The notes under the pieces: model-generated
Told to the model about the DNA's origin: nothing
Databases searched by the model: none
The model's input: only the letters and a program-made list of their open reading frames with translations
Assembly: GCA_035546535.1 (NCBI GenBank)
Contig: DASZWQ010000180.1
Coordinates: 1 to 64,000, forward strand
DNA from: Pirellulales bacterium
GTDB taxonomy: Bacteria > Planctomycetota > Planctomycetia > Pirellulales > JACPPG01
DNA length: 64,000 nt
Reading direction: 5' to 3'
Shown: piece by piece, positions 5,379 through 20,684 of the stretch
Layout: every line of letters begins with the position of its first letter
Numbering within the stretch: the first letter of the stretch is position 1
Position numbers and translations under genes: made by a program

Positions 5379-7556
5379 TCAGTTGCTCAAGCGGTCTCGT
5401 TCCTTGATGACCTCGGCCAACATGGGCGAGCCTTCCAGATCGGCCTGATCCGCAAGCCGCTCGAGCAGTTCGGCGTAGCGCGCCTTGTCGACCAGCCGGG
5501 CCACGGCCAAGGCCTGACGGCGGACGTCGATCTCGACGTAGGAGTCGACTGCCAATGCAGCCACGGCGTCGAAGATGGCCGTCGCTTCGTCTCCGACCGG
5601 CCGTGGCTGTTCCTCTTCGGCAACGCTGCCCGGCGGGCTGTACTCGAAGCTGTCCGGCGCGATGCGCACGACCGCGAGGCCGTGTGGCGACGAACGGACG
5701 TTGCTGAGATACCGATGCAGCGCAAGAATCGAAGCCAGGGCGATCTGCTTGTTGCGCGACTGCGTCAGTCGGGCCAAGGGCGCCAAAAGCTTGTCGTCGT
5801 CGGTCAGGCCCGCCGCTTCGGCCGCAGCGGTGACGAGCGGATGCCGGTCGTCGCGCAGGACGCCGAGCAATTGCTGCTGCGCTTCGGCATTGCCGATGGC
5901 GGCCAGAGCCCCCAGCGTCACGGCGTACCAGCGCCGGTCCGGCCGTTCGGCGACGATTTCCGATAGATCGCGGCTGGTGCGTGGATCGTCGAGCGCCGCC
6001 AGGACCAGGATCGCCTGGGCCGTGTGCGCCGCATCGGCCAAATGCTCGGTGGCCAGCGCGTAGCCGTCGTCGATCTTGTGTCGCGCCAGCAGCCGCGCGA
6101 TCCGCAATTTGTGGGGGAGAAAGGGCTCGGTCTTCAATAGCGGGCGCACCTCACGGGCGGCCACCGGCGAATCGATATTCTCAAGCGCCGCGAGCGCCGC
6201 CTCCTGAAGTCGGCCGTCTCGATCGCGCATCCAGCCGATCAGCGCGGGTACCGCGGCGTCGTCGCGCAATTGTCCTAGCGCCGCCACGAGTTGCAGACGA
6301 TCGACAAGAGCGAGATCGGCTTGTTGCGCCGCAAGTAGCATCGGTGCGAGGCTCGATTGGACGCGCATCCGGCCCAGGGATTCGATCTCGGCCGCGAGCG
6401 ATTGCCGCGCAACGATCGAACGGTTCAAGCGTTCAACGAGCGTGACGGCGGCCTTCTCGGCGTCGAGCTTCTCGGCGGCGCGTGCGTACACGGACTCGCG
6501 CGCGGGAACTTCGTCGAGCGGCAGCGCGGCGAGAGCGGCGCGAACCGCGGCGGCGACGTCCGGATCGTTCACGTGTGCCAGAGCCGTCGCCGCGGCCGCC
6601 CGCTCGTCATAGGTCGTGGCGCTGGTCAATTGCCTGAGGAGCCACGGCCTGGCCCAGGGAACGTCCACCTCGCGACCCAACAACTCTCCCAAGGCATCGA
6701 TCGCGGCCAGCCGATCACTTGTCCGCGTGGCGTGGGTGACAGCACCGGCGCTTTTCCCTTCGCCACCATTCGGCGCAGCCGGAACCAGCGCTCTCTGCAA
6801 GGCTTCGCGAACACTGTCTGTAGCGAGCGGTTGTTCAGCAGCGCCGTGGCTGTTCAGTACGTCGCGCAGTACTCCCAACGCTGCCGAGCGCACATATTCC
6901 GGCCCTTCGCTCATGAGTTTCGCCAGAGTGGGAAGCGTCCGCGGATCGCTCGTTGCGCAGTCGGCCCGCATTTTCAGGCTGCTGAGCAGGGGCACGGCGG
7001 CCGGTCCGCTGGTCGTCTGCAGGCGGTCGAGCAATAGCTTCGCGCGCTGGTGGCGCGAACGTGCGTCGGCCACTTGGATCAAAGTATCGACCGCGTCGAC
7101 CAGCGGATCGTCAGGCCCAGAGAGTAGCGGTACGAGCTGCTCAAAGGTGGTGGCGCCTGGCGTCGCGGATACACAACCGAAGCCTTGCAGCCCCTGCTGT
7201 TGCACGAGAATCAGCAGGCGGAACTCCCCCTCTTTCAAAGGGCAGCCCTGGACCGGATCCTCGGCCGGGCAGCCCAGATCGACGTTGGTCATCGAGAGTT
7301 GATCGCGTTGAAAGATGCCTTTGAGCCGACGCACCGGTTGAAAGCGATATTCGCGCAGCATGACGTCGGTCTTGGCCCCTTCGACGACCGTCAAGCTGCC
7401 GATGCTGGTGAGCCGGGCCACCATCACCAGGTGGGCCTGAGTAACGCTAGGTTCCAGATTCCAGTTTTCAAAGCCCTTCTCGGCCGCGGTGGCGCGGCCC
7501 ACGGACAATACGATCAATAAAAGCGCGCAACGGTAGCGCAGAATTAGCCTGGACAT
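5379..7556 (-). CDS. Secreted HEAT-repeat protein
   Basis: A 725-residue protein with a signal peptide (about residues 1-24, ending near RATAA). The middle and C-terminal parts hold many degenerate 30-35-residue helical pairs such as DERAAAATALAHVNDPDVAA, DAAVPALIGWMRDRDGRLQE and DRHPLVTAAAEAAGL, typical of HEAT/PBS-lyase-like repeats that scaffold protein contacts. No catalytic motif is visible. GGAGG precedes the ATG. The gene lies 22 bases after the M56 protease gene and almost certainly shares its transcript, so it is probably a periplasmic partner, substrate or sensor in that BlaI/M56 unit. That role is inferred from position. Confidence 0.82.
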   Translation of the reverse strand: MSRLILRYRCALLLIVLSVGRATAAEKGFENWNLEPSVTQAHLVMVARLTSIGSLTVVEGAKTDVMLREYRFQPVRRLKGIFQRDQLSMTNVDLGCPAEDPVQGCPLKEGEFRLLILVQQQGLQGFGCVSATPGATTFEQLVPLLSGPDDPLVDAVDTLIQVADARSRHQRAKLLLDRLQTTSGPAAVPLLSSLKMRADCATSDPRTLPTLAKLMSEGPEYVRSAALGVLRDVLNSHGAAEQPLATDSVREALQRALVPAAPNGGEGKSAGAVTHATRTSDRLAAIDALGELLGREVDVPWARPWLLRQLTSATTYDERAAAATALAHVNDPDVAAAVRAALAALPLDEVPARESVYARAAEKLDAEKAAVTLVERLNRSIVARQSLAAEIESLGRMRVQSSLAPMLLAAQQADLALVDRLQLVAALGQLRDDAAVPALIGWMRDRDGRLQEAALAALENIDSPVAAREVRPLLKTEPFLPHKLRIARLLARHKIDDGYALATEHLADAAHTAQAILVLAALDDPRTSRDLSEIVAERPDRRWYAVTLGALAAIGNAEAQQQLLGVLRDDRHPLVTAAAEAAGLTDDDKLLAPLARLTQSRNKQIALASILALHRYLSNVRSSPHGLAVVRIAPDSFEYSPPGSVAEEEQPRPVGDEATAIFDAVAALAVDSYVEIDVRRQALAVARLVDKARYAELLERLADQADLEGSPMLAEVIKERDRLSN

Positions 7557-7578: not shown

Positions 7579-8655
7579 TTACGAAGGGCAACACATGGAG
7601 AGAACTTCGGCCGGCACGACTGGCTGGTTTGTCGGCTCGTTCACCGGCGCACCGGGCTCGCAGGTGGTGAAAATGGTATTCGATCGCGCGGCCGGCTGAG
7701 CGCCACGCGCGAGCCCATACCGCAACTCGCACGGAAGCACGGCGCAGGCAAACACGAGCGTCAGCAGCGCGGCCAGCCGATTGACCCGACCGGGAGAGCG
7801 CGTTTCGAGAATCGCTCGCAGCCGCTGCTCGACGTCGGTGGCAACGCTCATCCCCGTGGCTTGTGGAATGGCGAACGTGGGCAACGGGTGAACAAATTCG
7901 AGCACGTCCAATAGCAACTTCGCGTAGCCGCGCCGCGCGTGAGGCATGTGAGCCACGACCGCGCCGTCGCAACGTGCTTCTTCGCAAACCCGCAGTTGCC
8001 GGCCGATGGCGCCCACCATCGGCAACCACCAAAAAACGACACGGACCACGAGTTCGAACAGTCGCACCAGGTGGTCCCGATTCTTCAGATGTACCAGCTC
8101 GTGCAATAGGAGCGAGGGAACCTGCGTTGGCTCGAGCTGCTCGACCAGCGCCCGGGGCAGCACCATGCGAGGCCCGCGCCAACCGGAAATCACAAACGGC
8201 GGTAACCGACCGGGCACGACGAGGATCTTCGGCATGCGCCATAGCGAAAGGTCGGTGGCGAGTTTCAGGGCAAGCGTTTGCCATGAAACGGGCGCCGGCG
8301 ACGCGCTGACGAGCAGTCGTTGAAAATGACTCCAGCGGCGCCAGGCGTTGTAGCCAGTCACGCCGGCCCCGACGATCCACATCGCGAGCAAGATCCACGG
8401 CAACGAAGTGACCAAGGGGCTTGTCGAGTTGACGTGCGTTCCGCAGGCGCATGTGCCCAACACGCAGGCGAGGAGGCCGGGCGACTCGCTGAGCGGCACG
8501 CTCACTACCGGAGGCGTCAGTAGCTTCAAAAGCGCCAGCAACCACAATAGCCGGGCAATCGCGAGCGCACCCAGCCAGCGCTGCACCGCGGCGGCCAATA
8601 GCGCCAAACATCCCGCCAAAACGACGTTCGAAATGAGCCAAGAAAGCCACGTCAT
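7579..8655 (-). CDS. BlaR1-like M56 membrane metallopeptidase
   Basis: A 358-residue membrane protein of the M56 (BlaR1/MecR1) family. Hydrophobic segments near residues 5-25, 33-50 and 83-102 precede the zinc motif HELVH (185-189) and the downstream acidic ligand region CEEARCD (about 224-230). Another hydrophobic stretch follows (about 205-217), with a C-terminal one near residue 310. Family members cleave a BlaI-type repressor when an extracellular signal is sensed. The penicillin-binding sensor domain of true BlaR1 is absent; only a short C-terminal tail remains. The adjacent BlaI gene (8696-9082) encodes the expected substrate, and the downstream HEAT-repeat protein may supply sensing. 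Confidence 0.88.
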   Translation of the reverse strand: MTWLSWLISNVVLAGCLALLAAAVQRWLGALAIARLLWLLALLKLLTPPVVSVPLSESPGLLACVLGTCACGTHVNSTSPLVTSLPWILLAMWIVGAGVTGYNAWRRWSHFQRLLVSASPAPVSWQTLALKLATDLSLWRMPKILVVPGRLPPFVISGWRGPRMVLPRALVEQLEPTQVPSLLLHELVHLKNRDHLVRLFELVVRVVFWWLPMVGAIGRQLRVCEEARCDGAVVAHMPHARRGYAKLLLDVLEFVHPLPTFAIPQATGMSVATDVEQRLRAILETRSPGRVNRLAALLTLVFACAVLPCELRYGLARGAQPAARSNTIFTTCEPGAPVNEPTNQPVVPAEVLSMCCPS

Positions 8656-8695: not shown

Positions 8696-9082
8696 CTAGG
8701 TACCAGGCGCTTCGTCGAGCAGCCGGCGCAAGTGGGCCCGTTCTTTAGCGGTCAGCTCTCCGGTTTCGACCAGGTACGTGAGCAGCGGGGCCATCGAGCT
8801 GTCACCGAGATTCTCGGCCACTCGACGCAGCTCGCCGCCAATCAACTCATCGCGTGCGACTGCGGGCGCGAAGATCCAGTTCGTCGCATCCTTCCGACGG
8901 CGCACAAGCTTCTTGTCCACGAGCCGGGTCAGCAGCTTTTGCACCGTCGCAAATTTCGACTCGCCTTCTTCAGGATAGAGCGCATCACGCAGGTCGCGAA
9001 TCGTCGCCTGCCCGCGCTGCCACAGCTCTTGCAGCACTTTGAGCTCGGCCTCCGTGGGGGCAGGCATCTGTCGCTTTCGCAT
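8696..9082 (-). CDS. BlaI/MecI-family repressor
   Basis: A 128-residue winged-helix repressor of the BlaI/MecI/CopY family. The DNA-binding half contains TEAELKVLQELWQRGQATIR and SKFATVQKLLTRLVDKKLVRR. The C-terminal half is the dimer region with the usual protease-cleaved segment. AAAGGAC upstream supports the ATG at 9082 over the internal ATG five codons later. It heads a BlaI-M56-HEAT operon and very likely represses its own promoter, where two dyads overlap the core elements (see 9130-9179). Confidence 0.9.
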   Translation of the reverse strand: MRKRQMPAPTEAELKVLQELWQRGQATIRDLRDALYPEEGESKFATVQKLLTRLVDKKLVRRRKDATNWIFAPAVARDELIGGELRRVAENLGDSSMAPLLTYLVETGELTAKERAHLRRLLDEAPGT

Positions 9083-13186: not shown

Positions 13187-13657
13187 CTATTTCCTCGCGA
13201 CCTTCAACAGCGCGATCTGACCAGCGTGGTACAGGTCGTGATGAATGACGACGTGCAGTAGTTCTTCCCGGCCGCCGGGGAGGTTGTCGGCTGGGACGGT
13301 GAGCTGTTCCTCGCTGAAGGAAGCGACGTCTTCTTCCAGGGCTCGCTGGGAAGCGTGCGATCGCTCGACCATGGCCTGCCAGGCCGCTTCGCTCGCATCG
13401 TCGATCGTGGGCCAGTTTTCATCGGCCGAGAGCTTTCGGCCCGGGCCATGCAAGCGGCGGCGCACCTCGTCGCGCCAGGCGGTCATGTGGGCGACCAACT
13501 GCCAGATGCTGTGCGAGCCGGCTGCCGGCGACGCAGCCGCTTGCGCGGCCGTGATGTCGGCCAGCAATTCGGCCACCGCCGGGCCGTGCCAGGCCGGACC
13601 GAAGTAGGCCTTGTGCAACATCTGTTGTAGCTGCGCGCCCCCCGTCATTGTTGCCAC
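13187..13657 (-). CDS. DinB-family protein
   Basis: A 156-residue four-helix-bundle protein of the DinB/YfiT superfamily. The metal-ligand histidines are in WQLVAHMTAWRDEV and HHDLYHAGQI, the three-His arrangement of the family. Members include thiol-dependent S-transferases and damage-inducible proteins, and the activity here cannot be assigned. It is 101 bases downstream of the M56-adaptor fusion on the same strand, so read-through transcription is possible. It is convergent with the ExeA-like gene, 18 bases away. Confidence 0.82.
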   Translation of the reverse strand: MATMTGGAQLQQMLHKAYFGPAWHGPAVAELLADITAAQAAASPAAGSHSIWQLVAHMTAWRDEVRRRLHGPGRKLSADENWPTIDDASEAAWQAMVERSHASQRALEEDVASFSEEQLTVPADNLPGGREELLHVVIHHDLYHAGQIALLKVARK

Positions 13658-13758: not shown

Positions 13759-16428
13759 TCAGTTACCGTAGTATGGCACCTTCTCTCCGTCTCGAACATG
13801 GCGGACGCCGTCGAGAATGATCTTGTCGTCCACGCCGACCCCATTCTCGATCACAAAGATGTCGTCCACCTCATTCGAGTAGCTGATCTCGCGTTGATGC
13901 GCGACGTTGTCCTGATCGACGACGTAGACGTATCGCTTGGCAAGAGCCTCGAACGTGGCACGTTGCGGAATTACCAGCGCGTTATTCAGGACTTGACTGA
14001 TCTGTATAGTGCCTCTCTGGCCGTGGCGCAGGATCCGGTCCGGGTTTGGAAAATCTGCACGGTAGGGAATGCTTCCGGTTTCTTCGCTGAAGTCGGCCTC
14101 GATCGCGCCCAGCTTACCACTCTGGTTGAACTTTTTGCCGCTCGCCAGTACGAGTTCGATTTTCAGATCATCGGCCTGCGGCTTCGAATCGGTCACATAT
14201 TCGAGATAGAGCGATTCAGGGACGTTGAAGTAAACCCACATCACAGTGTTATCGGATAATGTCGTTAGCGTGTCGCCCTCTTCGACCAGGCTCCCTTCTT
14301 GATGTTGCAGACGATCAATGATGCCGTCGAAAGGTGCTCTGACGGTGGCAAAGTCCAATTCGGCCCTGGCCAGGTCCGCCTTGGCTTGAGCTTTTTGCAG
14401 CTTGGCCGCGAACATGGCTAAATGCTCCTTCGAGACGACCTGGTCTTCGGCCAGCTTCTTGGCGCCGTTGAACTCCAACTCAGCGATTTTTACTTCGGCG
14501 CGCTCGGCTTCCACCTTTTTCTGGTAAAGGATCGGGATGACGGTGAACAACACGTCACCTCGCTTCACCTGTTGCCCCTCCCGCAGCTTGATGGCCTCCA
14601 GATACCCTTGCTCCAGCGCACGGATTCTGATGTGGCGGTGCGAGTGGATGCGTCCGAGGAACGACGCAGTCAGCGTGACGTCCTGCAATCGCGGCCGCGT
14701 GACCGTGATCTTCGGGGGCTGCTCGTCCGCAGCTTTAGCATCCGCAACCCCGGCGTCCGGAGGTGTCGCGACTGGCTCCGATTTCTTTGTTCCCCACCAC
14801 TGCTTCAAGGTCGATTCGCCGGTGCCGAAATAGTTGCCGCCGAAGCCATTGCCGTCCTCCATGGAATAAAAGCTCACATGAGGCCAGCCACGGCAGTTCA
14901 TGGGCAGGTACAGGCTGAATGTTCCCGACCCCTTGGCGACGGTCGTGGTCTGCACCTTGTACGAAGTGCTCGTTCCGTCCTTTGCTTCGCGCGCCGTGGT
15001 GTAGGCGGCCAACGTTGCCCGATCGTGCGAGGCGAGAGTGTAGGTTCCCTTGATCCAGTAGATGTTGCCGGGCGCAAAGTTCTCGGCGGTGCCGCGGATT
15101 TCGGTGATCGTGATTTTGTCGCCGTCGGCGAAGCGGGTCGCCCCCTGCTCGAAGGGAACGGCGTGTGGAAATTCCAGGGACGTGTTCGCCATGGCTAACA
15201 GAATCTCTTTCGTCGACGAATCGCTGCCCGGCCTGGTAGACGTCGGAGCTACTTCACCGGCCGCGGTGGCAACCGCCGATGAATCGGCACTTGATGCGGT
15301 CCCCACGTCGTAGTGAGCCGTGAGAGCGGCCGACGGGACGGAAACAACCGCGAACAGCGCGACAATCCATTTCGACCTGCGCGAGAGGCGTGGTGTGAAT
15401 TGGCGGTGCAGAATCATCTCGATCCTCGCTTTCAGGCTTGTCGAATGAAAAAACGAGCTCGCGGGAATCAACCGCGAACCAGGTTTCAGGCCAGGCAGAC
15501 GGTCCGCAGTTTCGAAAATCGCTTCCGCATAACGGTGCGCGTGATGGGGAAATGCCCAGCACACCCAGGCGTCGCAGCACAGATCTTCGGCCTGGTGGAT
15601 CTGGCGGCGAATGAGCCATGCCACCGGGTTCCACCAATAGATCGTTACCACGATCAGCTCGATCATCCGTACCCAATGGTCACGCCGGCGGAGATGCGCC
15701 AGCTCGTGCGCCAGGATCAGGGCCAGGCGATCGTCGCTGATTTCGGCGACCAGCCCCCTCGGCAGCACGATCGTCGGCCGCGCCCCGGCGCACCAGAGCA
15801 TGGGGACGCCCGCAAATTCCGCGTATCGCACCGCTGGCACGCGGCCGGCGCCCAAGCGAGCGGCGATTTCGGCCGTCAATTGTTCGTGACGACGCGAAGC
15901 GGGCAGCGTGTCGCGCAACAGCCGCTCGAAGCGCACGATTCGTAGGATGGCTACCAGCCCGCAGATCGCCGCGTCGCCCAACCACATCCAGATGATCGCC
16001 AACTGGGCGTGCGGCCACCCTGTGGCGAACTGCGCGGCAAGATGAAGCGCTTTTCCACTGGCAAGCGGTGCCACAGGAAGAGCTGGGGAAGCAGAATCGG
16101 CGATGACGATTTCCTGCCCGGCCGGTCGTGTGGCGTCGTCCGGCTGATCTGAGGACGCCGTCGACTCGACTGCGGCTGCCTCGGAAAGCGTTTTCTCCCG
16201 GTCGTACGGCGCAACTACTACATGACTGGGCGCGGCCCCATCGTCTGACGTTGTCAAGGGCCAGTCGATCGGCACGAGCGGAGGTGCGACGAGCTTGATA
16301 AGAACCAACAGCCACAGCAAGTGGGCGGTTGGCGGATGGTGCCAGACGCGGGTTATTCCGAAAACCAGGATCGCGAGCAAAAGAGCCACGATCGTGTTTT
16401 GGACAGCCCAGAGAAGCAGATCATTCAT
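13759..16428 (-). CDS. M56 (BlaR1-like) protease fused to an RND/HlyD-type periplasmic adaptor
   Basis: An 889-residue fusion. Residues 1-370 are a BlaR1-like membrane protease: hydrophobic segments near 8-25, 36-52, 142-165, 255-270 and 353-370, zinc motif HELAH (241-245) and third ligand region HQAEDLCCDAW (Glu281). Residues about 405-545 form a compact beta-rich domain (ITITEIRGTAENFAPGNIYW; GTFSLYLPMNCRGWPHVSF) common after planctomycete M56 domains. Residues about 572-889 are a membrane-fusion adaptor: lipoyl halves EQGYLEAIKLREGQQVKRGD and TVRAPFDGIIDRLQHQEGSL flank a short coiled coil (634-695), then beta-barrel and membrane-proximal parts. No RND pump gene is nearby. It lies 42 bases from a BlaI gene, its likely substrate. 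Confidence 0.85.
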   Translation of the reverse strand: MNDLLLWAVQNTIVALLLAILVFGITRVWHHPPTAHLLWLLVLIKLVAPPLVPIDWPLTTSDDGAAPSHVVVAPYDREKTLSEAAAVESTASSDQPDDATRPAGQEIVIADSASPALPVAPLASGKALHLAAQFATGWPHAQLAIIWMWLGDAAICGLVAILRIVRFERLLRDTLPASRRHEQLTAEIAARLGAGRVPAVRYAEFAGVPMLWCAGARPTIVLPRGLVAEISDDRLALILAHELAHLRRRDHWVRMIELIVVTIYWWNPVAWLIRRQIHQAEDLCCDAWVCWAFPHHAHRYAEAIFETADRLPGLKPGSRLIPASSFFHSTSLKARIEMILHRQFTPRLSRRSKWIVALFAVVSVPSAALTAHYDVGTASSADSSAVATAAGEVAPTSTRPGSDSSTKEILLAMANTSLEFPHAVPFEQGATRFADGDKITITEIRGTAENFAPGNIYWIKGTYTLASHDRATLAAYTTAREAKDGTSTSYKVQTTTVAKGSGTFSLYLPMNCRGWPHVSFYSMEDGNGFGGNYFGTGESTLKQWWGTKKSEPVATPPDAGVADAKAADEQPPKITVTRPRLQDVTLTASFLGRIHSHRHIRIRALEQGYLEAIKLREGQQVKRGDVLFTVIPILYQKKVEAERAEVKIAELEFNGAKKLAEDQVVSKEHLAMFAAKLQKAQAKADLARAELDFATVRAPFDGIIDRLQHQEGSLVEEGDTLTTLSDNTVMWVYFNVPESLYLEYVTDSKPQADDLKIELVLASGKKFNQSGKLGAIEADFSEETGSIPYRADFPNPDRILRHGQRGTIQISQVLNNALVIPQRATFEALAKRYVYVVDQDNVAHQREISYSNEVDDIFVIENGVGVDDKIILDGVRHVRDGEKVPYYGN

Positions 16429-16470
16429 GCCGCACCCTGCGGTTAGGATCGTACTCTCTTGCCACGGCAG

Positions 16471-16851
16471 TCATTTGGAGTACCTGGCGAGAAGCTTGCG
16501 GATTTCTGCCGCCTCTTGTTGGCTGAGCCGACGCTGATCGATCAATTGCATGATCAAGGGCGCCAACGAATCGGAACCGAGCCGATCGGCAAGCACTTCC
16601 AGTTCGCGCCCCAGCACGTCGGCCTGCGAGGCGCGGGCTGAAAAGACGTGTACGAACGAACTGCGGTCCCGCGCCACGAGCCCTTTGCGCTCCAGCCGCT
16701 GCAAGAATGAATGAACGGCGGCGAATTCCGACTCCGCGCCTTGCGGATAAATCTCCTCGGTGATCGCCTTGGCTGACAGCGCCCCGTGCGCCCATAGCAC
16801 TTTGAGCACGGCCAGCTCAGCATCCGTGACAGTAATGGCTTTTTTGCTCAC
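16471..16851 (-). CDS. BlaI/MecI-family repressor
   Basis: A 126-residue BlaI-type winged-helix repressor, paralogous to the one at 8696-9082. The N-terminal half has TDAELAVLKVLWAHGALSAK and SEFAAVHSFLQRLERKGLVAR; the C-terminal half is the dimerisation region LAPLIMQLIDQRRLSQQEAA. It heads an operon with the M56-adaptor fusion, which is expected to cleave it on signal. A sigma70 promoter with a 21-base dyad lies about 40-70 bases upstream. Confidence 0.9.
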   Translation of the reverse strand: MSKKAITVTDAELAVLKVLWAHGALSAKAITEEIYPQGAESEFAAVHSFLQRLERKGLVARDRSSFVHVFSARASQADVLGRELEVLADRLGSDSLAPLIMQLIDQRRLSQQEAAEIRKLLARYSK

Positions 16852-16891
16852 GACAACTACTTCTCACCAGATAATAAGCGACACGCCTATG

Positions 16892-16920
16892 GTTATAAGC
16901 ATGTTGCCTATAAATGTCAA
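16892..16920 (-). promoter_or_regulatory. Sigma70 promoter with operator dyad for the second BlaI operon
   Basis: On the minus strand, TTGACA (-35, 16915-16920) and TATAAC (-10, 16892-16897) are exactly 17 bases apart. The spacer and -10 carry a 21-base near-palindrome (16893-16913) of form TTATARGCA-n3-TGCYTATAA, with 8 of 9 arm positions paired. A repressor bound there would block RNA polymerase. It differs in sequence from the GACA/TGTC operators of the first BlaI operon, so the two repressors probably do not cross-regulate. Confidence 0.8.
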
Positions 16921-17160: not shown

Positions 17161-18720
17161 ATGAGCAGTTCGATCCGATCCATGATTTCCTTCCCTCATG
17201 CTTCGACCGGCCCCCCGGCGTCGCACGAAGACGATCGAGTTGGCCTGCGGTTCGGCCCCGCGGTACCGGCCGGGTCGCGCGGAAGATCACTGCGCACGCT
17301 TCTCGAGGCTGCAATCATCGTGCTCATCGCGGCGGCTCTCGTGCGTACCTGGGGCGTGCAGACGTTCACCATCGATGGCAGTTCGATGGCGCCGACGCTG
17401 GCGGCATCCCATGTCGTGATTCGATGTCCCACTTGCGGATGTGAGTTCACGGCGGGCGTCGACGGCCCGGCGTCTGAGGATCGGCCCGCGATTTGCCCCA
17501 ACTGTGGCGACGGGCAGGGGCGCATCGTTCGCTCCGCCGCGCTGCGCGGTGACACGGTGCTGGTGGATAAATCGGCGTTCGCCTGGCGGCGGCCAGGGCG
17601 CTGGGAAGTGGTTGCCGTTCGGCATCCCGGCCAAGAACGATGGCCGTGCGTTAAACGCGCCGTCGGCCTGCCGGGCGAGGAAATCACGATCGTGGCAGGC
17701 GACGTCTACGTCGACGGCCGCATCGCGCGCAAGAGCCTCGGCGAACAGCGGGCGCTGGCGATCATGGTACACGATGATCGCTTTCGTCCACCGGCCGAGA
17801 CGATGCCGCCGTGCTGGCAGGCCGGCGTGGATTCGCGCTGGGCGATGACGGACGACGGGTTTTCGCTTGCTGCTTCTGTCGATGGGGGTTCACCACGGAG
17901 GCACGGAGACCCGGAGAAATCCGGAGAGAATGAAAAAAGAGAGGATAAAGAGGTATCTGATTCGACATTTGATATTCGTCCTTCGTCATTTCCGACGGAC
18001 TGGCTGACTTATCACCATCGCCGACGGAATAGCGCGGGTGTGGTGGCCTCGTCACCGGTCGATGATTCGTATGCCTACAATCAGATGCTGCCGATTCGCG
18101 AGTTGCACGTGGTGCGCGACCTGGTCTTGTCGTTTTCGATAGCGGCGGGCGGAACGGGCGTCCTTTACGTGCGCGGATCGGACGGCGTGCATGATTTTGT
18201 GTGCGCGATCGAGAGCGACGGCGCCGCGCGGCTCTTTTGCGATGGTCAACCGGCGGCCGATGGCCAGATCGGTACCCCGCTCGGTCGCGCCACGAGACGC
18301 ATGGAGTTTTCGCTGGTCGATGCCGCTTGCCGGCTGGCCGTCGATGGGCGCGAAGTGCTCGAATACGTCTTCGGGCCAACGCCCGCGAACGGCCCCACGA
18401 CCGCGCAGCCCTTTGCGATTGCGGGCCGGGGAATGACATTGACCATCAGCGGCTTGCGCATCGATCGGGACGCGTTTTATGGTTTGCCGGCTTCGGGCCG
18501 CGCTCTGGAAAGGACACGGCTTGGCGACGGCGAATATTTTCTGCTCTCGGATAATGCCCCCCTGGGCGTGGATAGCCGGGAGCGAGCGTTTGGCCCAGCG
18601 GTCGACGATAAGTCGTTTGTGGGTAAACCGTTCGTAGCTGTCGGCGCAAGCCGGCCGTGGCCCGACTGGCTGCCGGCGATTCAAGTTCCGGCTCTCCGCC
18701 AAATTCGCTATATTCGGTGA
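17161..18720 (+). CDS. Signal peptidase I, enlarged, with zinc ribbon and LamG-like insert
   Basis: A 519-residue S26A signal peptidase, about twice the usual size, that would cleave signal peptides from exported proteins at the membrane. One membrane segment (about 48-62) precedes the Ser box IDGSSMAPTL (Ser75). A zinc-ribbon-like insert has CPTCGC and CPNCG (Cys89/92, 112/115). The Lys box is VKRAVGLPGEE (Lys165). A long beta-rich insert (about 300-445) resembles a concanavalin/LamG domain. The conserved final box GDGEYFLLSDNAPLGVDSRE follows. Residues about 243-277 are low-complexity, encoded by an apparent in-frame repeat. ATG 17161 or 17182 could be the start. A paralogue follows. Confidence 0.85.
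   Translation: MSSSIRSMISFPHASTGPPASHEDDRVGLRFGPAVPAGSRGRSLRTLLEAAIIVLIAAALVRTWGVQTFTIDGSSMAPTLAASHVVIRCPTCGCEFTAGVDGPASEDRPAICPNCGDGQGRIVRSAALRGDTVLVDKSAFAWRRPGRWEVVAVRHPGQERWPCVKRAVGLPGEEITIVAGDVYVDGRIARKSLGEQRALAIMVHDDRFRPPAETMPPCWQAGVDSRWAMTDDGFSLAASVDGGSPRRHGDPEKSGENEKREDKEVSDSTFDIRPSSFPTDWLTYHHRRRNSAGVVASSPVDDSYAYNQMLPIRELHVVRDLVLSFSIAAGGTGVLYVRGSDGVHDFVCAIESDGAARLFCDGQPAADGQIGTPLGRATRRMEFSLVDAACRLAVDGREVLEYVFGPTPANGPTTAQPFAIAGRGMTLTISGLRIDRDAFYGLPASGRALERTRLGDGEYFLLSDNAPLGVDSRERAFGPAVDDKSFVGKPFVAVGASRPWPDWLPAIQVPALRQIRYIR
17887..17992 (+). repeat. Intergenic-type repeat inserted in frame in signal peptidase A
   Basis: The segment starts GGTTCACCACGGAGGCACGG and continues through an A-rich stretch (GAATGAAAAAAGAGAGGATAA) to CGACATTTGATATTCGTCC. 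It resembles widespread non-coding 'CACCACGGAGGCACGGAG' and 'TTTGATATTCGTCATTCGTC' repeats I know from several bacterial groups. Its base composition contrasts with the GC-rich gene around it, and it encodes about 35 charged residues with no match in the paralogue at 18903. Confidence 0.6.
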
Positions 18721-18902
18721 CCCGCGGCGAATAATCATCCAGGCGCCGGACGTGCCGGGCCGGCCGCCGCAGCACCCGTTCGACGGCGGATTGTTGCGGA
18801 TCGGCCGCCGTATGAGCGTCGGGACGCTGTTCTACCCTGCCAAGGCCGTAGCCACGGAAGCTGGCATCGGTGTCGCCGTAGCCGGTCGAAGGATCACGAT
18901 TG

Positions 18903-20684
18903 ATGTCAAAAGCCAAAGCTCAGCCAGCGACGACGACGAAAGCCAGGGGTACCGCCGCGCCAGCCGCCCCGCCGCGCAAGGACGGCATGCGCGAGACCGT
19001 CGAATCGATCGTTATTGCCTTCGTGCTAGCATTTCTTTTTCGCGCGTTCGAGGCCGAGGCCTTCGTCATTCCCACCGGCTCGATGGCACCGACGCTGATG
19101 GGCGTCCACAAGGATCTCGCCTGCGAGAAGTGCGGGTATCCCTATCGTGTGAGCGCGAGCGAGGAGCAAGACGAAGAGGCCGAATTGTATCGCATGCTGA
19201 TGGGCGATTCGCAGCGCGAGCCCGAGGTCCGTCGTGGCGCGGCCAATAACCTTGCGGCGCGCGACGTCGTGGGAGGTATCTGCCCGAACTGCCGCTTCCC
19301 GATGGTGATCGATCCGCAGACGCCGGAAGGGAAAAAATTCCCCACATACAAGGGGGACCGGATACTGGTCGCCAAGTTCCCGTACGACTTTTCCGACCCT
19401 GACCGCTGGGACGTGGTGGTCTTCAAGTATCCGCAAAAGTCGAACGAGAATTACATCAAACGTTGCGTCGGGCTGCCGAACGAAACGGTCATCATTCACG
19501 GTGGCAACATCTTTACCCGCACCGAAGAACAGCCACAGCGCGAAATCGCGCGCAAACCGCCGGACAAGGTCCGCGCGATCATGCAATCGGTGTACGACAA
19601 CGACTATGCGCTGCCGGATCTGATCGCCGCGGGGATGCCCGTGCGCTGGCAAGGCATGAGCGAGGCGGGCGGCGAATCGTGGCAGCCGCTCGAAGGTTAT
19701 CAGAGCTATCGTACCGAGGGCACGGCCAGCGGCGAAGCGTGGCTCGGCTATCAGCACCTGGTGCCTAGCCAGGCCGATTGGCAGGAATTCCGACGCACCG
19801 GCAAGTTTGCAGCCGCCGGAGGCGATATTGCTCCGCGACTGGTCAGTGACTTCTACGCCTACAACGCCGGCTGGAATCGCAATCTGCGCACCGGCCTGGA
19901 ATCCGAAACGCAAGGTCTGCACTGGGTGGGCGACCTGATCCTGGAATGCGATCTGACCTGCGAACCGTCGGGTAAGACGCCCGAGGCCGAGGTCGTCTTG
20001 CGGCTCATCAAAGGCGGGCGCACCTTCGATTGCCGCATTGACGTCAACTCGGGCAAGGCCACCTTTGCCATCGACGGCGCCGACCTGGGCGCCACGGCCG
20101 AGACCGGCATCAGCCCCGGCCGCCGACACAGTCTCTCGTTTGCCAACGTCGATTGCCAGCTCTTGTTGTGGGTCGACGGCAGCGTGGTCGAGTTTGATAA
20201 GCCCGCCACATACGACCCCGTCGAGCGCGACGTACCGACGCTCGACGATCTGACGCCGGCACGGATCGGCGCTAAAGGCGCCGCGGTTCAGGCCGAACAC
20301 CTGCGCATCTGGCGCGACGTGTACTACATCGCCTGCAAGTACACGCCCGACCGGCAACAGATCATGATTTCCGACTACGAGACGCCCGAGGCGGGCTTTT
20401 TGTCGAACCCCACCAAGTGGCCGCGCGTGTTTGCCAATATGCGGACCGTGGAGTTTCCGCTCGAGTCGGATCAGTTTTTGATGCTTGGCGACAACAGTCC
20501 GCGTAGTGCCGACAGCCGCTTGTGGAAGGCGCCCGACGGCCGGCCGGAGCATTATGTGAGCCGTGACCTGCTGGTCGGCAAGGCGGTGTTTGTGTACTGG
20601 CCGCATTCGTGGAATCGGATCCCGGGGACGAGAATCCCGTTCCCCTTCTTTCCGAATTTTGCCCGCATGAAATTTGTTCGCTGA
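18903..20684 (+). CDS. Signal peptidase I, enlarged paralogue
   Basis: A 593-residue S26A signal peptidase in tandem with the previous gene. One membrane segment (about 32-47) precedes the Ser box FVIPTGSMAPTLMG (Ser60). CEKC (74/77) and CPNC (127/130) form a probable zinc ribbon. The Lys box is YIKRCVGLPNE (Lys186). A large insert (about 270-455) contains LamG-like strands such as DLILECDLTCEPS and RRHSLSFANVDCQLLLWVDG. The final box LMLGDNSPRSADSRLW is intact, so it should be active. GAAGGA lies upstream of ATG 18903. The zinc ribbon and insert are shared with its neighbour, indicating duplication of an already enlarged ancestor. Confidence 0.9.
   Translation: MSKAKAQPATTTKARGTAAPAAPPRKDGMRETVESIVIAFVLAFLFRAFEAEAFVIPTGSMAPTLMGVHKDLACEKCGYPYRVSASEEQDEEAELYRMLMGDSQREPEVRRGAANNLAARDVVGGICPNCRFPMVIDPQTPEGKKFPTYKGDRILVAKFPYDFSDPDRWDVVVFKYPQKSNENYIKRCVGLPNETVIIHGGNIFTRTEEQPQREIARKPPDKVRAIMQSVYDNDYALPDLIAAGMPVRWQGMSEAGGESWQPLEGYQSYRTEGTASGEAWLGYQHLVPSQADWQEFRRTGKFAAAGGDIAPRLVSDFYAYNAGWNRNLRTGLESETQGLHWVGDLILECDLTCEPSGKTPEAEVVLRLIKGGRTFDCRIDVNSGKATFAIDGADLGATAETGISPGRRHSLSFANVDCQLLLWVDGSVVEFDKPATYDPVERDVPTLDDLTPARIGAKGAAVQAEHLRIWRDVYYIACKYTPDRQQIMISDYETPEAGFLSNPTKWPRVFANMRTVEFPLESDQFLMLGDNSPRSADSRLWKAPDGRPEHYVSRDLLVGKAVFVYWPHSWNRIPGTRIPFPFFPNFARMKFVR

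Follow-up and report, generated by a model that had tools for sequence, protein, structure and literature searches.

Switches of the BlaR1/BlaI type are best known for sensing beta-lactams. BlaR1 cuts the repressor BlaI directly, the signal running from a sensor outside the cell to a protease that faces the cytoplasm; the sensor sits after the last transmembrane helix, and SpsB cleaves BlaR1 in the linker that follows this helix (PMC9834060). Among the adaptors that work with RND pumps, BesA of Borrelia has no hairpin and functions with the pump BesB (PMC4446572), and the membrane-proximal domain of MacA is reported, in work cited in the same paper, to switch its transporter. In the open-licence literature, no pairing of M56 with HlyD or of a BlaR1-like protein with an efflux component, and no M56/BlaR1-membrane fusion protein, was found.

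The window, that is the whole stretch of 64,000 nucleotides that was analysed, carries a gene in which a BlaR1-type M56 protease is followed by an Ig-like domain, designated MID, and by a complete RND adaptor. Judged from the named relatives that were retrieved, the bacterium is probably a member of the Planctomycetota. The locus probably represents a self-regulating switch of the BlaR1/BlaI type whose outside sensor has been replaced by the Ig-like and the adaptor-derived domain. This function is drawn from the anatomy of the locus and from comparison.

Results

The fusion protein is encoded by a single uninterrupted frame of 889 codons' worth of residues on the minus strand, and its parts are listed below with the evidence for each.

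13759..16428, minus strand: fusion protein of M56 protease, MID and RND-type periplasmic adaptor, 889 aa (single open frame; Pfam, NCBIfam; AlphaFold2 model)
15412..16413, minus strand: Peptidase_M56 domain, residues 6-339 (PF05569, 103 bits; PDB sequence match to BlaR1 8exp)
15694..15708, minus strand: HELAH zinc motif, residues 241-245 (sequence position; alignment of 27 M56 rows)
15583..15585, minus strand: Asp282, third zinc-ligand position (alignment of 27 M56 proteins; alignment with BlaR1)
15313..15369, minus strand: last predicted transmembrane helix, residues 354-372 (hydropathy; BlaR1 topology, PMC9834060)
14761..15213, minus strand: MID, residues 406-556, Ig-like beta sandwich (sequence searches, structure model)
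13762..14760, minus strand: RND periplasmic adaptor, residues 557-889 (TIGR01730; MexA match; Foldseek matches to AcrA/MexA)
14353..14532, minus strand: adaptor coiled-coil hairpin, residues 633-692, tip ...KKLAEDQVVSKE... (AlphaFold2 secondary structure; alignment)

The match to PF05569 (cutoff 31 bits) and that to TIGR01730 RND_mfp (214 bits against a cutoff of 94.9, residues 575-884) both lie far above threshold, and HlyD_D23, HlyD_3 and Biotin_lipoyl_2 also score. The adaptor part holds both lipoyl halves, the hairpin, the barrel and the membrane-proximal domain, with the lipoyl, barrel and membrane-proximal domains in RND-adaptor order, and MexA aligns to it end to end (query 13-329 of 334). 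Most of the protease and of the adaptor is modelled by AlphaFold2 at pLDDT above 90; Foldseek matched whole AcrA/MexA chains to this model, the membrane-proximal domain included. A BlaR1-like zinc protease joined to a complete adaptor, as proposed in an earlier, sequence-only reading of this DNA, is thus borne out, and the barrel and membrane-proximal domains are both present in the model.

That the frame joins two genes through a frameshift or an assembly error, a doubt raised in the same reading, is scarcely credible. The genome is a 210-contig assembly; against such an artefact, the frame is clean, GC3 is even along the M56, MID and adaptor parts (0.72/0.77/0.71) and hence across the junction, and independent fusions occur in other genomes, including that of Aquisphaera insulae, which is recorded as a strain and not as a MAG. 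Given these fusions elsewhere, the even GC3 and the domain scores, the architecture is not due to chance.

The M56 part has five hydrophobic stretches, of which the last is followed by MID and the adaptor; this C-terminal portion would be extracytoplasmic. MID was modelled as a beta sandwich (pLDDT 83) for which Foldseek gave only weak Ig-like matches (best E 2e-3) and no Pfam family was found (L039). It is present in 10 of 297 genomes of the order, taken at one genome per species, where it follows M56 domains, also in proteins lacking an adaptor, follows Ser/Thr kinase domains (L098, L101), or stands as a small protein, in some cases with a likely signal peptide as judged by eye. In the two kinases, both from G184, MID lies behind the transmembrane segment.

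The protease part matches S. aureus BlaR1 by sequence, and BlaR1 Asp246 and Arg294 have their counterparts in Asp286 and Arg336. The autocleavage pair Ser-Phe of BlaR1 aligns with Ser325-Phe326, a pair that is not conserved among the relatives. While the HELAH motif was found where it had been read, the assignment of Glu281 as a zinc ligand proved to be one residue off, since in the alignment of 27 M56 proteins the third ligand position (the Glu of E-x-x-C-D) corresponds to Asp282. This position is Glu in BlaR1 (E242) and in 24 of the 27 proteins, and Asp in three: the window protein and two relatives, G001:C218 and a G057 protein (L066, L038). An Asp could bind zinc at this site, and activity would not be assured with Asp in place of Glu. 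Since these two relatives share the Asp, it is a trait of the clade rather than a random defect; the change being inherited, the protease may well be active.

The repressor gene named in the sequence-only reading is indeed the neighbour of the fusion, ending 42 bp upstream of its frame. The repressor, the elements of its promoter region and the gene downstream of the fusion are listed next.

16471..16851, minus strand: BlaI/MecI/CopY-type repressor, 126 aa (Penicillinase_R, 72 bits)
16892..16920, minus strand: sigma-70-like promoter, TTGACA-17-TATAAC (read from the sequence; same layout in the sister species)
16895..16911, no strand: operator dyad 1 (ATAAGCATGTTGCCTAT), in the spacer of the two hexamers, reaching into the -10 (sequence, dyad searches)
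16874..16890, no strand: operator dyad 2 (ATAAGCGACACGCCTAT), just downstream of the -10 (sequence, dyad searches)
13187..13657, minus strand: DinB-family protein, downstream of the fusion (Pfam DinB_2)

The promoter is absent from a generic consensus scan because the last base of its -10 hexamer is C. Dyads do lie over it as had been read; the 21 bp attributed to one dyad are, however, the spacing of two 17-bp dyads of the form ATARGC-N5-GCYTAT. About 0.6 exact single dyads would be expected in the genome by chance, and two were found, both at the blaI promoter. Allowing one mismatch gave 12 extra sites, a total of 14 against 42 for a reversed-pattern control, and these sites were therefore not counted as a regulon. 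The tandem operator occurs, without mismatch, once in its own genome and once in G001, at the orthologous BlaI, and no other tandem site with up to three mismatches was found in five genomes of the genus. Mapping a regulon with the dyad, as had been suggested, thus yielded no target in these genomes besides the two orthologous promoters, and the sole visible target of the predicted operator is the blaI-M56 operon itself. The M56 protein beside the orthologous BlaI of G001 has no adaptor, so that the same circuit also operates, as predicted, in a sister species in which the protease does not carry this domain.

The DinB-family gene lies 101 bp downstream of the fusion and may be co-transcribed with it; no minus-strand terminator-like site was found between the two, and no DinB-family gene adjoins the sister BlaI-M56 locus. 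Two unusually long S26 signal peptidase proteins are encoded in tandem (17161-18720 and 18900-20684, plus strand), divergently from the BlaI promoter. The window contains a second BlaI-M56 pair (7579-8655 and 8696-9082, minus strand), its M56 protein being without a large C-terminal domain, which is followed by a HEAT-repeat protein at 5379-7556. A part in anti-phage defence was considered and dropped, PADLOC giving no match.

No RND pump was detected by tblastn within the 64 kb, in line with the sequence-only reading. Elsewhere in the genome the picture differs: the nearest free relative of the adaptor (C167, 67% identity) directly precedes an RND pump (ACR_tran, 963 bits). A conserved C-terminal tail was present in 22 of 22 pump-linked adaptor relatives, these being the aligned free adaptors with an adjacent RND match, and in none of the six pump-less ones, namely four fusions, one remnant and the C40 lipoprotein. 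In the window fusion, moreover, the N-terminal lipoprotein anchor of the adaptor is replaced by M56. The C40 protein (L071:6417-7328, minus strand), from the same genome, is a hairpin-less lipoprotein adaptor of this family with no pump nearby.

These data bear on the proposal that the adaptor docks on an RND pump or outer-membrane channel encoded elsewhere, the C167 operon being the best candidate, and that the protease reports the assembly, load or absence of the complex. The hairpin and membrane-proximal domain are intact, so that docking of a working adaptor on a pump could take place; the predicted fold is complete, the tip pattern ...L-x5-V-S is common to the window and C167 adaptors, the latter stands before a pump in the same genome, and the reported switching by the MacA membrane-proximal domain offers a precedent. 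Against this, the tail of all pump-linked relatives is missing, the BlaI operator was found neither at the C167 pump promoter nor elsewhere, and similarity between adaptors does not equal docking. Two pump-less relatives also lack the hairpin, although BesA works with its pump in that state, and hairpin loss was for this reason dropped as proof of a lost pump role. On balance, this reading is unlikely.

A different possibility is that the adaptor is the output of the circuit, the protease controlling its own synthesis and a signal-peptidase cut after the last helix freeing or exposing an adaptor that serves a pump in trans. With the operon as the only target of the operator, the fusion itself would be what is induced; the segment VPSAALTA after the last helix looks, on inspection, like a signal-peptidase site, BlaR1 is cleaved by SpsB in the corresponding linker (PMC9834060), and the S26 signal peptidases are encoded next door. 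However, the tail is lost and there is no lipid anchor, and the signal peptidases do not adjoin the sister locus, which makes this account improbable.

Intact M56-adaptor fusions were found at four loci in three species of the genus (the window, G001:C64, G001:C66 and G003:C130), with a fifth in Aquisphaera insulae. Among 397 genomes of the order, one per species, long frames that combine M56 with a close adaptor (E<=1e-60) were confined to the genus of the window, and the exact M56-MID-adaptor architecture to one genome. Long frames at G729 and G586 were rejected as fusions, having no M56 match and upstream parts that look like read-through before ordinary adaptors. The adaptors of the other three genus fusions are 48-64% identical to that of the window, and the core formed by the barrel and the membrane-proximal domain is retained in all.

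The M56 halves of the four genus fusions do not form one clade (p-AU 1.5e-48, 361 lnL units), and three of them pair, with 100% bootstrap, with M56 proteins carrying other domains: the window protein with G001:C218, which is M56-MID-MID without an adaptor, G003:C130 with C17, and G001:C64 with C47 and a G003 neighbour, both with other C-terminal parts. The tree resolves a nearest M56 relative for these three of the four. In contrast, the adaptor halves can be held as one clade (p-AU 0.39), which branches close to the base of a family that is otherwise pump-linked. On the simplest account, a single orphan adaptor module would have been linked to at least three different M56 genes or handed from one to another; alternatively, members of a single donor family may have been captured independently.

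Another account would be a genomic accident, in which an adaptor fragment was captured by chance and is drifting without any sensing role. The fused adaptors do have longer branches (0.28-1.02, the median being 0.24), and the copy adjoining G001:C64 is a remnant, consisting of the C-terminal end of an N-truncated M56 followed by a hairpin-less adaptor. Nevertheless, four in-frame fusions have stayed intact in three species at the identities given above, with their core kept, and the whole fold is predicted, mostly at high pLDDT; an accident is therefore judged improbable.

The same adaptor family was detected on a second kind of signalling protein, in G071, which belongs to another genus: three hairpin-less adaptor copies stand in tandem behind a Ser/Thr kinase (G071:C5, L114:1318-5349, plus strand). 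No second kinase-adaptor fusion was found in the 397 genomes of the order. Other M56 proteins of the window's genome bear CarboxypepD_reg, WD40, Big_5 or Poly_export domains at the C-terminus. The Poly_export (Wza-type) fusion, C37 (L117:5638-7545, plus strand), has a BlaI gene just upstream and is a second case of an export-machine part on an M56 protein.

Discussion

Because the adaptor stands where BlaR1 has its sensor, and members of the adaptor family recur at that place on unrelated M56 proteins and on a kinase, a sensor role is the best reading of this domain. That both the adaptor family and MID recur on two kinds of signalling protein speaks more for sensing than for a structural role in a pump. 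Of the function put forward in the sequence-only reading, the sensor part therefore stands. The further idea, that repressor cleavage reports the state of an efflux or secretion complex, found no support: no pump is near, the tail is gone, the anchor has been replaced and the operator occurs nowhere else. The adaptor domain is best read as a recruited orphan module that would no longer belong to a pump of its own.

In the switch proposed here, BlaI would occupy both dyads of the tandem operator at its promoter, keeping the blaI-M56 operon repressed. The ligand of the periplasmic adaptor-derived part might be a small molecule, a metal, a component of the envelope or a partner in transport; the change that its binding brings about would pass via MID and the last transmembrane helix to the cytoplasm-facing zinc protease, which would then cut BlaI and allow induction of the operon.

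More tentatively, at a little short of an even chance, the adaptor fold may serve in this phylum as a portable extracytoplasmic receptor, present singly on several M56-BlaI antirepressors that are unrelated to one another and in three hairpin-less repeats on a Ser/Thr kinase. If so, a part of the efflux machinery now serves as the input of repressor proteolysis. Should the adaptor domain sense, it would constitute a new input class for such proteolysis and allow a direct test of whether an adaptor can bind a signal by itself. As the swap is seen at different stages in sister species, the locus offers a natural experiment in how such receptors acquire new inputs.

Compared with the BlaR1/BlaI and MecR1/MecI systems of staphylococci and B. 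licheniformis, the locus has in common an M56 gluzincin with HEXXH, a BlaR1-like membrane topology as predicted, the sensor position after the last transmembrane helix, an adjoining BlaI-type repressor and dyads over the promoter of the repressor. It differs in having an Ig-like domain and an RND adaptor instead of a penicillin-binding sensor, and in the absence of a beta-lactamase or PBP gene under the operator. No penicillin-binding (SXXK) sensor was found in the fusion, Pfam giving only M56, M48-like and HlyD/lipoyl families, and the named BlaR1/MecR1 NCBIfam models fall below cutoff; the protein would thus work like BlaR1 but not be a beta-lactam BlaR1.

With MexA/AcrA-type adaptors (TIGR01730) it shares the complete set of lipoyl, hairpin, barrel and membrane-proximal domains, whereas M56 stands in place of the lipoprotein anchor, no pump adjoins and the pump-linked tail of the subfamily is missing. 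BesA is hairpin-less, as are the two pump-less relatives and the kinase fusion, while the window copy has its hairpin. The M56 proteins of the same genome resemble the fusion in their interchangeable C-terminal part and, in most cases, an adjoining BlaI gene, and differ from it in the C-terminal domain itself; closest in spirit is the Poly_export fusion, in which a part of an export machine has likewise been joined to an M56 protease.
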